From: Brevibacillus sp.
GTDB lineage: Bacteria; Bacillota; Bacilli; Brevibacillales; Brevibacillaceae
Length of the DNA stretch: 12,949 nucleotides
Reading direction: 5' to 3'
Assembly: GCA_029240815.1 (NCBI GenBank)
Contig: JARDZO010000196.1
Location: 1 to 12,949, forward strand
Shown here: one piece after another, positions 99 to 8,535 of the stretch
Numbering within the stretch: position 1 is the first letter of the stretch
How the letters are laid out: the number at the start of each line of letters is the position of its first letter
Program-made: the position numbers and the translations under genes
Notes under the pieces: generated by a model
What the model was told of the DNA's origin: nothing
Database searches by the model: none
Seen by the model: the letters and a program-made list of their open reading frames with translations, nothing else

Positions 99-139
99 TG
101 GTCTTACCCCTGTCAAGTAGACAGTTTGAAACAAGCCCT
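99..139 (+). repeat. IS terminal inverted repeat (end distal to orfA)
   Basis: The repeat begins TGGTCTTACCCCTGTCAAGT and continues with AGACAGT. It pairs ungapped with the reverse complement of 2143-2183 at 30 of 41 positions, including the final GCCCT. This is the end expected downstream of orfB, yet 800 bp of passenger DNA lies between. Confidence 0.8.
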
Positions 140-151
140 CGTTTAGGCGTT

Positions 152-177
152 CGTTGAAAATTAAGTTTTAGACTAAG
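152..177 (+). repeat. Inner inverted repeat, left arm
   Basis: This 26-base arm matches the reverse complement of 890-915 at 22 positions, ending in the shared TAGACTAAG. The two arms enclose the whole passenger region. They may be the ends of a second, nested element or an old duplication of IS sub-terminal sequence. No target duplication is visible outside them. Confidence 0.6.
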
Positions 178-188
178 CGTAATACATG

Positions 189-245
189 AAACAGCGGCGA
201 CTTAAGACCTGATAATAAAGTCTTAAACTCACCGCTGTTTTTATT
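189..245 (+). terminator. Two-tier hairpin followed by a T tract
   Basis: The outer stem AAACAGCGG (189-197) pairs with CCGCTGTTT (232-240). The inner stem TTAAGAC (202-208) pairs with GTCTTAA (220-226) around an 11-base loop. TTTATT follows, as in a plus-strand intrinsic terminator. No gene is visible upstream within the element, so it may end a small RNA, act as a recombination structure, or block transcription entering the passenger gene. Confidence 0.6.
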
Positions 246-270
246 GAAATATCGTACCCGTTAGTTGAAT
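238..270 (+). repeat. Direct repeat, copy A (upstream of the passenger gene)
   Basis: This 33-base block matches 843-875 at 25 positions without gaps. The conserved parts are TTTTTATT, AATATC and CCGTTAG. Both copies start on the T tract of a hairpin, so hairpin plus repeat forms a unit that occurs before and after the acetyltransferase gene. Confidence 0.65.
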
Positions 271-294
271 ACACACAGCTTAGAACAAGAACCG

Positions 295-337
295 TTGTAT
301 ACGAATATAATACTGAATATAATATAGAATATAATTA
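295..337 (+). promoter_or_regulatory. Sigma-A promoter of the acetyltransferase gene, in a triple 12-bp repeat
   Basis: A -35 box TTGTAT (295-300) is followed after 17 bases by TATAAT (318-323). That TATAAT is one of three identical GAATATAAT units starting at 303, 315 and 327, each 12 bases apart, so there is one TATAAT above and one below the well-spaced copy. Transcription would start near 330, giving a leader of about 35 bases before the ATG at 366. Confidence 0.7.
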
Positions 338-365
338 CGTACTATTAAAAAATGGGAGGATTATA

Positions 366-815
366 ATGTCAGTTGTCATAAGAAATGCTGAACCTGAAGA
401 TGTAGGCAGTTTGACCGAGTTAATGCATGATTACATAGTTGGTTTTTATCAAAACCCTTGGCCACCTATCGAAAAAATTCATAATTTGATTCAAACCCTG
501 TTTGAGAAGCAGAATGGTATACAGTTTGTAGCAGAATTAAATGGAAAGTTGGTCGGTTTTGCTACATTATTCTTTACTTATAGCACTATGAAAGCAGATA
601 AAATCACCATTATGAACGACCTTTTTGTAATTGAGCAATTTAGAGATACAGAAGTGGAAACACAACTTTTTTTAGAATGTCATAAATACTCACAAGAACA
701 TGGATATGCTAACATGACTTGGATCACATCTACTGATAATACTCGAGCTCAAATTTTCTTTAAAAAAATGAGTGCTCTCCAAGGGAGAGATTGGGTTCAC
801 TTTTCCAAAAACTAG
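366..815 (+). CDS. GNAT-family N-acetyltransferase, IS passenger
   Basis: The 149-residue protein has the usual size and order of a single-domain GNAT enzyme, which moves an acetyl group from acetyl-CoA to an amine; the substrate is unknown. The N-terminal VVIRNAEPEDVGSL strand-helix is typical. The central strands run around residues 53-90 (FVAELNGKLVGFATLFF and NDLFVIEQFR), followed by the acetyl-CoA helix and the C-terminal NTRAQIFFKKM, equivalent to the common N-x-x-A-x-x-x-Y/F motif. The pyrophosphate loop reads FRDTEVE where the family usually has R/Q-x-x-G-x-G/A, so both glycines are missing and activity may be altered. GGGAGGA at 354-360 suits the ATG at 366. The gene is clearly richer in A+T than the flanking chromosome and has its own promoter and terminator, so it travels as a unit within the IS. 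Confidence 0.85.
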   Translation: MSVVIRNAEPEDVGSLTELMHDYIVGFYQNPWPPIEKIHNLIQTLFEKQNGIQFVAELNGKLVGFATLFFTYSTMKADKITIMNDLFVIEQFRDTEVETQLFLECHKYSQEHGYANMTWITSTDNTRAQIFFKKMSALQGRDWVHFSKN

Positions 816-823
816 GAAGTTGT

Positions 824-852
824 AACCCTCTAATATTGAGGGTTTTTATTTT
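824..852 (+). terminator. Terminator of the acetyltransferase gene
   Basis: AACCCTC (824-830), loop TAATATT, GAGGGTT (838-844), then TTTATTTT. It starts nine bases after the stop codon and is a clear plus-strand intrinsic terminator. It also prevents read-through into the convergent transposase genes. Confidence 0.85.
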
Positions 853-875
853 AATATCCTGTCCGTTAGCGTAAT
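843..875 (+). repeat. Direct repeat, copy B (downstream of the passenger gene)
   Basis: Second copy of the 33-base block at 238-270 (25 of 33 identical), starting on the T tract of the acetyltransferase terminator. Its last eight bases, AGCGTAAT, also occur at 176-183. These may be cassette boundaries. Confidence 0.65.
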
Positions 876-889
876 GGCTCAATTATTTT

Positions 890-915
890 CTTAGTCTACA
901 ACTACATTTTCAAAG
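890..915 (-). repeat. Inner inverted repeat, right arm
   Basis: Partner of 152-177 in inverted orientation (22 of 26 positions). It lies 26-51 bp beyond the orfB stop, where the end of an ordinary IS3 element would be expected. Confidence 0.6.
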
Positions 916-940
916 TCTATTACATTATTTTTAGTGAACA

Positions 941-5889: not shown

Positions 5890-8535
5890 CTACTTGGCAT
5901 CATACCAACTGTGCCCAAAGCTCACATCTGCCTTGAGTGGAACATGAAGCTCCAATGCGCTTTCCATGACCTCGGGCACCAGTTTTTTCATCGTCTCCAG
6001 TTCCTCCTGCGGCACCTCGAAGACCAATTCATCGTGTACCTGCAGCAGCATGCGGCTCGCCAGACCCTTTTCTTGCAGGGCTTCCTGCATACGGATCATC
6101 GCAAGCTTGATCACGTCAGCAGCAGTCCCTTGGATCGGAGTATTCATCGCTGTCCGCTCTGCAAAGGAACGCAGATTAAAGTTGCTGCTCCGGATGTCAG
6201 GCAGATAGCGACGTCGGTTCAAGAGCGTCGTGACAAAGCCGTCCTGCTTGGCCTGCTTGACGATTTCCTCCATCCATTGTTTGACACCTGCAAAGACAGA
6301 GAAATAACGTTCGATAAAATCGCCCGCTTCTTTTCGGGTAATGTTCAAGTTCTGTGACAGTCCGTAGTCACTGATGCCGTACACGATTCCGAAGTTGACT
6401 GCCTTTGCCTGACGCCGCATCAAGGATGTAACCTCTTCCTCGCTTACACCGAAAACGTCCATCGCCGTCCGCGTGTGAATGTCCATGCCATTGCGGAAAG
6501 CGTCGATCAGGTTTTCATCGCCTGAGATGTGCGCCAAGATGCGCAGCTCGATCTGGGAATAGTCTGCTGCCAGCATGTACCAGCCATCCTCGGACGGGAT
6601 GAAGGCTTCGCGAATCTTGCGTCCCTCTTCCATTCGGATCGGAATATTTTGCAGGTTGGGCTCAGTACTGGACAGTCTCCCCGTCGCCGTCGTTGCCTGG
6701 TTGTACAGCGTGTGCACTTTGCTCGACTGGCTGTGAATTTCCTTGGTCAGTCCTTCGATATAGGTGGACCGCAGCTTGCCCAGCTGGCGGAAGGTCAGAA
6801 TCGCGTCGATAATCGGATGATACGGTGCCAGCTTTTCCAAGACATCGGCACTGGTAGATGGTCCGGTCTTGGTTTTTTTCAATACCGGCAGATCGAGCAC
6901 ATCAAACAAAATTTCGCCCAGTTGTTTCGGCGAATTGATATTAAAAGTCGTGCCAGCGAGCTCGTAAATCTGCTTGGTCAGCTCCTCCAGCTTGGTATCC
7001 AGCTCGGCTCCCATTTGAGCGAGTCGATCACGGTTTACCTTGATACCCTGCTTTTCCATGAGAGCGAGGACCATGCTGAGTGGTGCTTCGAGATCGTTCA
7101 ACAGCTCATTCATCTGGTTTTCAGTCAGCTGCTCGCGCAATACCGGTACGCACTGCCAGATCGCCGCCGCTTTGTGTGCCGCGTGTTCGCTGAGTACATC
7201 TATCTCTGGCAAAAGCCTCTTTGCCCCTTTTCCGTACACCTCTTCATCAGAGCGCACCCGTACCTCGGCGTACTGGGAAGCGATGGAGTCCAGCGTCGGG
7301 TTGCTTTCTGTCGCATTCAGCAAATAGGACGCCAGGTAAACGTCAAAGTTGATGCCTTTGATGTCCAGCTCATGCCATGCGAGTCCAACGGTGTCACGCT
7401 TGCCATCGAATGTCCATTTTTCCTGGGAGCCGTCTGCCAGCCACTGACAAAACGCCTTCCATTCCTTTGCCACATCCCATGGGACAAACAAATTTACATC
7501 GTCCGCCGACAATCCAAAACCAACGATTGGAGAATGGTGGTAGTTGTCTCCATCCATCTCCACGTAGACAGCCATTGGTGATGTCAGCTTGTCCGTGAAT
7601 TTCTCCACAGTTTCCTCAGAAATCACTTCATATTGAAAAGGAGCAGCATTTGCAGCTTGTCCGTCGTCTGGCGTATCTACCTTAATTTTGGACAGGAGCG
7701 ACTTGAATTCCATCTTTTTAAAGAACTCGCTCAAGGACACGCCGTCATAACCGGTATATCCGGTCTCTTGCACATCCAGCTCGACCGGCGCCTCTCTCAG
7801 AATTGTCGCCAGTTCCTTACTCATTTTGGCCTTGTCCACGTTCTCGCGGAGGTTTTCCTGCAGTTTTTTGCCGGATACGCGATCAATATTTTCGAGTACT
7901 TCTTCTACAGAACCGTACTCGTGCAACAGCTTCAGGGCCGTCTTCTCACCGACACCCGGTACGCCTGGAATATTGTCTGACGTATCACCCATTAACCCTT
8001 TGAGGTCTATTATTTGCAACGGCTTCAGACCGTACTTTTCCTGAATTTCCTGCGGGGTGTACAACTCGATTTCGCTGACGCCCTTGCGTGTCAACGCCAC
8101 TGAAACATGCTCCGATACGAGCTGAAGCATGTCCTTGTCACCCGTGATCACGGTCGTTTTCCAGTCCTGCTCATCTGCCGTTTTGGTCAAGGTACCGATG
8201 ATATCATCTGCCTCATAGCCTTCCAACTCAAAGCGTTTGATGGAGAAAGAATCCAACAGCTCGCGAATCAGCGGAAACTGCTCGGACAGCTCCGGCGGCG
8301 TTTTTGCACGCCCTCCTTTATAATCGGCATATTCACTATGGCGGAACACCACTTTGCCCGCATCAAACGCAACCATGATATGCGTAGGCTTCATTTCCTC
8401 CAAGACCTTTAACAGCATGGTCGTGAATCCCAACACAGCATTGGTGTGCAATCCTGCCGACGTGGACAGGAGCGGCAACGCATAAAACGCACGATTGGCG
8501 ATACTATTTCCGTCAATCAATACAAAATGGCTCAA
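5890..8535 (-). CDS. polA: DNA polymerase I
   Basis: The 881-residue protein fills gaps in repair and removes RNA primers. The 5' nuclease domain covers about 1-290 (VLIDGNSIANRAFYAL, VAFDAG, EADDIIG, ITGDKDMLQL, GDTSDNIPGVPGVGEKTA). The middle domain has VYVEMDGDNYHHSPIVG where proofreading enzymes have the D-x-E motif, so 3'-5' exonuclease is probably absent, as in Geobacillus Pol I. The polymerase domain has motif A D658 (DYSQIELRI), motif B R707 to Y719 (RRQAKAVNFGIVYG) and motif C with D835 in VHDE. The start is TTG at 8535, with AGAGGGG nine bases upstream. It is the first gene of its operon and is divergent from the deacetylase-like gene. No clear promoter was found. Confidence 0.97.
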   Translation of the reverse strand: MSHFVLIDGNSIANRAFYALPLLSTSAGLHTNAVLGFTTMLLKVLEEMKPTHIMVAFDAGKVVFRHSEYADYKGGRAKTPPELSEQFPLIRELLDSFSIKRFELEGYEADDIIGTLTKTADEQDWKTTVITGDKDMLQLVSEHVSVALTRKGVSEIELYTPQEIQEKYGLKPLQIIDLKGLMGDTSDNIPGVPGVGEKTALKLLHEYGSVEEVLENIDRVSGKKLQENLRENVDKAKMSKELATILREAPVELDVQETGYTGYDGVSLSEFFKKMEFKSLLSKIKVDTPDDGQAANAAPFQYEVISEETVEKFTDKLTSPMAVYVEMDGDNYHHSPIVGFGLSADDVNLFVPWDVAKEWKAFCQWLADGSQEKWTFDGKRDTVGLAWHELDIKGINFDVYLASYLLNATESNPTLDSIASQYAEVRVRSDEEVYGKGAKRLLPEIDVLSEHAAHKAAAIWQCVPVLREQLTENQMNELLNDLEAPLSMVLALMEKQGIKVNRDRLAQMGAELDTKLEELTKQIYELAGTTFNINSPKQLGEILFDVLDLPVLKKTKTGPSTSADVLEKLAPYHPIIDAILTFRQLGKLRSTYIEGLTKEIHSQSSKVHTLYNQATTATGRLSSTEPNLQNIPIRMEEGRKIREAFIPSEDGWYMLAADYSQIELRILAHISGDENLIDAFRNGMDIHTRTAMDVFGVSEEEVTSLMRRQAKAVNFGIVYGISDYGLSQNLNITRKEAGDFIERYFSVFAGVKQWMEEIVKQAKQDGFVTTLLNRRRYLPDIRSSNFNLRSFAERTAMNTPIQGTAADVIKLAMIRMQEALQEKGLASRMLLQVHDELVFEVPQEELETMKKLVPEVMESALELHVPLKADVSFGHSWYDAK

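Follow-up and report, generated by a model that had tools for sequence, protein, structure and literature searches.

A putative single-gene cassette with compact two-arm sites, nested in a Tn7-like mini-element and an IS3-family element in Brevibacillus

The attC sites of integrons have the core GTTRRRY, and the dif site of the XerC/XerD recombinases consists of two inverted arms around a 6-bp spacer. According to IntegronFinder 2.0, integrons are nearly absent from Firmicutes, in which the sole complete integron was found in Limnochorda pilosa, together with a few CALIN (PMC9024848). Integrons are also known as cargo, with 10% of Tn7-like elements reported to carry one (PMC8649781). Among insertion sequences, members of the IS4 family have been described that hold additional DNA, with passenger genes, between their left repeat and the gene for the transposase (PMC2266710). 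Here, we analyzed a window of 12,949 bases (the whole stretch of DNA under study), in which an acetyltransferase gene lies between the ends of an IS3-family element. The window is chromosomal DNA of a Brevibacillus-like organism, and the genes beside the element, recognized from their translations, are presumably gap, a lytic-transglycosylase-like gene, coaE, mutM, and polA. With a probability of roughly 70%, we read the locus as a nest of three layers, in which an IS3-family element contains a Tn7-like mini-element that in turn contains a single-gene cassette, which a recombinase would exchange at the core of a short site.

The outer layer is the IS3-family element at positions 99-2183, which carries orfA and orfB on the minus strand and the acetyltransferase gene between orfB and the far end. 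Its terminal inverted repeats, 99-139 on the orfB side and 2143-2183 on the orfA side, pair over 41 nt with 73% complementarity. Both orfA (1795-2115, 106 amino acids) and orfB (941-1774, 277 amino acids, with an rve integrase core) have transposase family matches; against the NCBIfam IS3 model NF033516 (cut-off 160), orfB scores 313.9 bits and passes, and orfA scores 37 bits and stays under the cut-off. A slippery A_AAA_AAG is found in frame at 1843-1849 on the minus strand, and the orfB frame is open from 1868, upstream of this signal, suggesting that orfB would be reached from orfA by −1 frameshifting. Transposase, two ORFs with a frameshift signal, terminal inverted repeats, and a short target duplication are all characteristic of the IS3 family; the departure lies in the content, as an extra 793 bp (148-940) accompanies orfA and orfB between the ends. 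Short IS3 relatives lacking this insert are present in two other genomes (G016 and G017). An earlier note on this DNA, made from the sequence alone, had described an IS3 element with an acetyltransferase gene within its inverted repeats, and the repeats, the transposase ORFs, and the GNAT gene at 366-815 were all confirmed. A search of a phage collection gave zero matches; 30 plasmid records matched, none covering 80% of the query, and among the 20 listed all matches fell under transposase genes. An Rfam scan of positions 1-2300 returned three matches, all far below gathering scores.

The position of this element is informative with respect to its target. A perfect 12-bp inverted repeat, now split into a left half (80-91) and a right half (2190-2201), would form the terminator hairpin of gap, and the flanks joined with a single TCT fold at −20.3 kcal/mol. 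The trinucleotide TCT is found on both sides of the element, at 96-98 and 2184-2186, so that the TCT duplication and the restored hairpin proposed in the earlier note were both recovered. Judged from these flanks, the IS3-family element is inserted in the loop of the predicted gap terminator, with duplication of TCT. The gap gene was present in 26 of 26 genomes of the Brevibacillus group; the 200 nt below it contained the IS in none of the 26, and the CCCCTTTGC...GCAAAGGGG stem was retained, by eye, in 12 of them. Terminator-like hairpins were found at the insertion sites in all five flank pairs compared. We also observed a short IS3 relative in what is apparently one and the same terminator loop in two genomes (L002 on contig C7 of G016 and L003 on contig C4 of G017), in opposite orientations and with flanks that are reverse complements of each other, hinting that terminator hairpins may be repeatedly targeted. 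Our literature search for terminator-targeting IS3 elements returned no paper. IS1397 and ISKpn1 are described as inserting specifically into palindromic units (PMC1525189); they resemble the present case as IS3-family members with palindromic targets and differ from it in that the hairpins here are terminator-like. Separately, positions 2259-2306 contain an exact 24-bp tandem duplication at the 3′ end of gap, which extends the tail of the protein.

The middle layer is the 793-bp insert itself, a candidate non-autonomous Tn7-like mini-element at 148-940 (plus strand; cGTTCG...GAACA), whose ends were placed by alignment with other loci. It is bracketed by TTAGG (143-147) and CTAGG (941-945), a putative 5-bp duplication with one mismatch, the right copy of which overlaps the orfB stop, and the short IS of G016 (L002) aligns across the flanks joined after removal of 148-940. 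Together with the end repeats described next, these observations identify 148-940 as a non-autonomous insert of Tn7-like type placed at the stop of orfB, and its nesting within the IS3-family element is well supported by the sequence comparison. The motif AGTCTANNACNTTATTTTC, scored over 16 positions at a threshold of at least 12, has four sites in the whole 12,949-base window, all of them within 148-940: two on the minus strand at the left end (156-174 with 15/16 and 211-229 with 14/16) and two on the plus strand at the right end (893-911 with 14/16 and 914-932 with 15/16). The second left repeat lies within a leader hairpin (189-240, plus strand; outer arms 189-203 and 226-240), and leaders are conserved in other copies, where the approximately 19-bp end repeats also occur in tandem. 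Better-preserved leaders begin with TGTTC; in the window, C replaces the first T at 148, and the right end closes with GTGAACA at 940. The outer repeats, Tn7-like ends, and cassette sites form three distinct sets, and the idea that the repeats around the GNAT gene are IS3 ends was rejected for this reason.

The alignments with other loci reveal ends of Tn7-like type in 148-940. Positions 154-275 and 882-942 (56-177 and 784-844 of the element) match dozens of places, and in 13 of the 20 loci compared these end stretches occur without any IS3 ORF match. In another genome (G015, locus L275), four such end repeats are found between tnsA and a gene that, from recognition of its translation, we take to be glmS, in a complete TnsABCD element with TnsA (PF08722, 1.3e-20), TnsB-like (Mu-transpos_C, 5.5e-9), TnsC-like (AAA_22, TniB), and TnsD (PF15978, 1.5e-78) proteins. 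The ORF list of 148-940 contains none of TnsA, TnsB, TnsC, or a target selector, and a TnsA N-domain is found in 7 of the 26 genus genomes. The mini-element would have been moved by the Tns proteins of a helper element. A scan of genome contigs with the leader core gave 10 stretches, all from Brevibacillus, so that the leader looks genus-bound, unlike the cassette site described below. At L050 (G007:C1:280000-293500), L038, and L049, we additionally noticed a glmS-adjacent region where a TnsA-like remnant that stays below cut-off is accompanied by several copies of the leader, which gives the impression of mini-elements piling up at the target of Tn7.

The inner layer was delimited by comparison of copies that carry different cargo. 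Two direct copies of a two-arm site (arm-N6-GTTAG) lie in the mini-element on the plus strand, one attI-like at 244-270 (spacer GTACCC, core GTTAG at 260-264) and one on the cassette side at 849-875 (spacer CTGTCC, as opposed to CTGCCC; core GTTAG at 865-869), forming 28-nt direct repeats at a spacing of 605. BLAST comparison of the window with two copies from G007 that carry other cargo (L031 and L032) showed that homology is lost at 264 and regained at 864, within CGTTAG, so that cargo differences are seen to begin and end at the core. At L033, the left homology also ends at 264, but the right homology starts at 882, not at 864, and at L034 the right homology starts at about 883. If exchange adjoins the G of GTTAG, the cassette would span 261-865 (plus strand, 605 bp); its boundaries are well supported by the comparison, and the exact point of exchange would be the one assumed here. 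GTTAG follows 26 of 61 leader matches, two of which (L185 and L199) are unlike the site, and it is preceded by CCC in 16 of these 26 leaders, while the bases 3′ of GTTAG vary with the cargo. Eleven right-end regions were read: six have the site (the window, L031, L033 with a damaged core, L044, and L049 twice), with CGTAATG coming next in four of these six, and five (L034, L038, L041, L045, and L047) are without it. The cargo-dependent bases after GTTAG and the sites at right ends fit the view that each cassette brings its own site and that exchange takes place beside the G of GTTAG.

The GNAT acetyltransferase gene (366-815, plus strand, 149 amino acids) matches PF00583 with an E value of 2.8e-10. 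A promoter scan of the forward strand detected promoter-like sites only at 411 and 458, both within the gene, and a terminator scan detected a terminator-like hairpin at 824-844 (plus strand). Of the promoter and terminator that the earlier note had assigned to this gene, the terminator has a terminator-like counterpart, and the promoter was not confirmed; the gene is presumably expressed. A DNA relative of the gene within the genus (79% identity; G019, L037) lies outside any cassette, and PADLOC gave one match, to the GNAT protein, with an E value of 0.0029.

Mobility of such a composite as a unit is shown by G007, which contains two copies of the same layout of IS3 plus cargo (2370 bp, 0 differences) at 3.83 and 5.15 Mb, flanked by separate 3-bp duplications (GAT and TAT) and situated again in hairpin loops. 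As the two copies are identical and each has its own duplication, the sister composite in G007 can be seen from these sequences to move as one unit. In both copies, a methyltransferase gene in the opposite direction takes the place of the GNAT gene; copies with other passenger genes, for which the earlier note had proposed to search, do therefore exist. A passenger gene moving along between IS ends, the hallmark of a transporter IS, is thereby documented for the sister composite and not for the present copy, since a second copy of the GNAT-bearing block was found in none of the 26 genomes; the self-contained mobile unit postulated earlier holds to that extent. What found no support is that the IS3 element itself acquired the gene, which lies in a separate Tn7-like mini-element with cargo exchanged at a defined site. 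Two further genomes match only parts of the transposase region, with AraC and NAD-epimerase genes as cargo in G009 and a small, lipoprotein-looking protein in G010. Between the window and L031 or L033, identity over the left block (99-264) amounts to 94.0% and 96.4%, and over the transposase side to 83.4% and 81.8%, whereas L031 and L033 are 97.0% identical to each other on that side. A similar left block and a divergent transposase side imply that the two halves have different histories.

The two-arm site recurs well beyond the window. Its 17-letter right half gave 13 exact sites in 8 of the 26 genus genomes and was also detected in 3 of 299 genomes sampled across the phylum, every one of them from a single family (f23), which we call Paenibacillaceae from the recombinase of one member (G092), as it matches a protein of Paenibacillus pabuli with 100% identity over 99%; among the matches listed, most named homologues of that recombinase are from Paenibacillus. 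A 16-letter version was found in 110 of 197 genomes of this family, with up to 27 in one genome, as compared with 7 matches in all for the reversed pattern. When 29 distinct sites were selected on the right half alone (30 matches, one dropped for insufficient flank), the inverted left arm matched on average at 6.14 of 10 positions, while 1000 shuffles reached at most 3.79. These putative sites are also seen to recur in arrays, with 20 neighboring same-strand pairs at spacings of 393-3240 bp (median 1492.5), and 32 of the 38 ORFs between array sites point against the site. Locus L100 of G092 is a small array of genes from the NUDIX, SnoaL, glyoxalase, and phosphotransferase (APH) families, and its SnoaL-bearing stretch recurs with 85% DNA identity in the Brevibacillus mini-element L049, the homology of the SnoaL cassette stopping at the site on one side. 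By comparison between genomes, then, the units are mostly one-gene cassettes bounded by sites and exchanged at the core, as in integrons. We also noted that ORFs of L100 (the APH family one) and of L105 in G048 share their first 50 residues, suggesting a common cassette. Furthermore, at L074, L078, L088, L100, and L155, paired sites are separated by 60-75 bp that include a hairpin, the CTGCCC type coming first and the G...CCC type second.

A tyrosine recombinase of 282 amino acids is encoded in the L100 array (6476-7321), and the window itself contains neither a recombinase nor an IntI integrase. R140, H231, R234, H257, and Y266, which we take to be the catalytic residues, are invariant across 14 aligned recombinase sequences. 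The protein scores 186.2 bits for XerC (cut-off 335.15), 185 for XerD (329.6), 181 for XerA (220), and 89.5 for the integron integrase (265), and the closest solved structure is XerD (1a0p, 2.5e-31). IntI4 aligns in two pieces, separated by 21 residues in the query (187 to 209) and by 61 in IntI4 (183 to 245), which means that a segment of about 40 IntI residues is absent from the recombinase. Given this absence and the score of 89.5 bits against a cut-off of 265, its identification as IntI was rejected. PADLOC returned no match for the recombinase. The protein is found in 34 of 197 Paenibacillaceae genomes at E ≤ 1e-40, two of them (G514 and G505) with only 33-35% identity, and in 31 of 398 class genomes at E ≤ 1e-60, and 429 database proteins match it at E ≤ 1e-30. 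Within the genus, the close family is represented by partial copies only, in 4 of 26 genomes (G025, G023, G020, and G006), and the genus's own XerC/D-like proteins are 33% identical to the recombinase.

Sites are concentrated around this recombinase. In 20 regions surrounding it (321 kb), 33 distinct sites score at least 18, against 1 in reversed sequence; this count was taken after removal of overlapping both-strand matches (35 by bins before). Upstream of close homologues, we found TTRAACTAGC-GTNTCCC-GTTAG or a variant of it, reading away from the gene. A site scoring at least 19 is present upstream of 14 of 21 close homologues, as compared with 16 of 420 control windows taken at these loci; when only the core is considered, the counts are 13 of 21 versus 9 of 420. 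Of the 22 loci sampled, L160 was dropped, its recombinase being a fragment. The spacer of 6 or 7 nt was adopted after scoring with a 6-nt spacer, which had given 7 of 32 at a score of at least 17 versus 30 of 640 control windows. The genomic context thereby reveals a recombinase family with a putative upstream site, whose geometry is, by analogy, that of attI beside intI: in integrons an attI site adjoins the integrase gene and reads away from it, and an analogous site does so in the close homologues. We infer that this recombinase carries out cassette exchange. A branch of about 50% identity was also observed in other families of Bacilli (L248-L261; f88, f81, and others); only 1 of 11 such homologues has the core upstream, and since this group mostly lacks a recognizable upstream site, it may use other sites.

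The distribution of sites on the chromosome is strand biased. In 23 Paenibacillaceae genomes, 91 of 108 sites are on the strand that has the sequence of lagging nascent DNA; counted by 50-kb cluster the ratio is 58 of 70 (p about 2e-8), and when sites within 6% of the point opposite dnaA are set aside, 61 of 65 are on the same strand. These genomes were taken as one main chromosome with dnaA located, from 28 picked after the pattern had been noticed in a few; five fragmented ones (G411, G510, G370, G492, and G433) were left out. For chromosomal integrons, PMC5371416 reports that the bottom strand of attC lies on the leading template in 25 of 30. If the GTTAG strand corresponds to the top strand, the replication-strand polarity here is opposite, and for this reason the strand bias was not taken as proof of kinship with integrons. 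Both biases may come from genes that are co-directional with replication.

Taken together, these observations can be assembled into a nested history. A non-autonomous Tn7-like mini-element (148-940) would first have inserted in an ancestral IS3 at the orfB stop, and the IS3-family element 99-2183 would later have entered the loop of the gap terminator, duplicating TCT. The mini-element would provide the attI-like site (arm-spacer-GTTAG) at its leader end, and a single-gene cassette (about 261-865), holding the GNAT gene, would carry its own half-site, of the CTGCCC type as in other cassettes. The XerC/D-like tyrosine recombinase would most likely insert and remove such cassettes by exchange within the CGTTAG core. 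The evidence is comparative throughout, and several observations speak against this history: leaders and right ends that lack the site, right-hand homology from 882-883 at L033 and L034, a close recombinase family reduced to partial copies in the genus, the core upstream of just 1 of 11 homologues at about 50% identity, the GNAT relative outside a cassette, the mismatch in the 5-bp duplication, and the CTGTCC spacer. A history with two layers only, in which the cargo varies by homologous recombination in the leader and right end or by independent insertions of mini-elements, and GTTAG is a chance limit of homology, is an unlikely though serious competitor. Leader and right end are indeed long shared stretches, the halves of the composites differ in history (94.0-96.4% on the left, 81.8-83.4% on the right, as compared with 97.0% between L031 and L033), and 35 of the 61 leader matches have no GTTAG nearby. 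Against it, the two points at which homology to two copies breaks, 264 and 864, fall within the core, the two-arm site is also present in a second family, around a dedicated recombinase, and the SnoaL cassette is common to L049 and to the Paenibacillus-like array L100 (85%), where one end of the homology coincides with the site.

Far less probable are two simpler accounts. If the locus were a plain transporter IS, the IS3 element would have captured the acetyltransferase gene through a faulty transposition event, and no meaning would attach to the inner repeats; the gene does lie between IS ends, and passenger-bearing IS have been described (PMC9330008), yet the four Tn7-like end repeats are confined to 148-940, the same ends occur without an IS3 ORF match in 13 of 20 loci, and different cargo is found at the same junctions. 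A similarly slight chance is left for the two-arm motif being a regulatory or structural intergenic repeat and no recombination site: intergenic position, palindromy, proximity to the leader hairpin, and strand bias on the chromosome would all suit such a role, but in copies of one element the motif marks the limits of the differing cargo, it is found upstream of a tyrosine recombinase, and within arrays it separates genes in one orientation. The three-layer nest accordingly remains our preferred reading of the locus.

On a broader scale, we consider it somewhat better than an even chance that Bacilli, above all Paenibacillaceae and Brevibacillus, have an integron-like cassette system of their own, in which IntI is replaced by a small Xer-type tyrosine recombinase and attC by a compact site of two arms spanning about 27 bp, and which takes up unrelated small genes and rides on Tn7-like elements and thereby on insertion sequences. 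Such a system may have been overlooked because integron finders seek IntI and attC; the open-access literature that we searched contained no description of a non-IntI cassette system in Bacilli, which is weak evidence of absence. If a separate cassette-exchange system spans Paenibacillaceae, it would help to explain the movement of small enzyme genes among these soil bacteria. It would represent the integron way of life on a different recombinase, with a compact pair of sites for testing, and the nest illustrates how one cassette would ride two transposons simultaneously.

In conclusion, the locus can be placed among the known systems as follows. With integrons, it would share a tyrosine recombinase whose upstream site points away from its gene, units made of one gene and one site, arrays, and unrelated cargo swapped at a conserved GTTAG core; it differs from them in a recombinase under the IntI cut-off with about 40 residues fewer than IntI4 between query positions 187 and 209, in a compact palindromic site of about 27 bp with two arms around 6 or 7 nt, and in ORFs that mostly oppose the site (32/38). 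The likeness to Tn7 and Tn7-like elements consists of a TGT-type end (with C at 148 in the window), repeated sequences resembling binding sites at both ends, a putative 5-bp duplication (with one mismatch here), and relatives at glmS with TnsABCD, whereas here only ends and cargo remain, an IS3 is the place of insertion, and the cassette site appears to be of another type than in integrons. As in transporter IS and MIC, an IS moves with a gene between its ends, but the passenger here would be a nested Tn7-like element with an exchangeable cassette. Finally, the XerC/XerD-dif system is close in that XerD (1a0p) is the nearest solved relative and the site likewise has two inverted arms with a 6-bp spacer, and it is set apart by the 33% identity of the recombinase to the XerC/D-like proteins of the genus and by the occurrence here of multiple sites in gene arrays.
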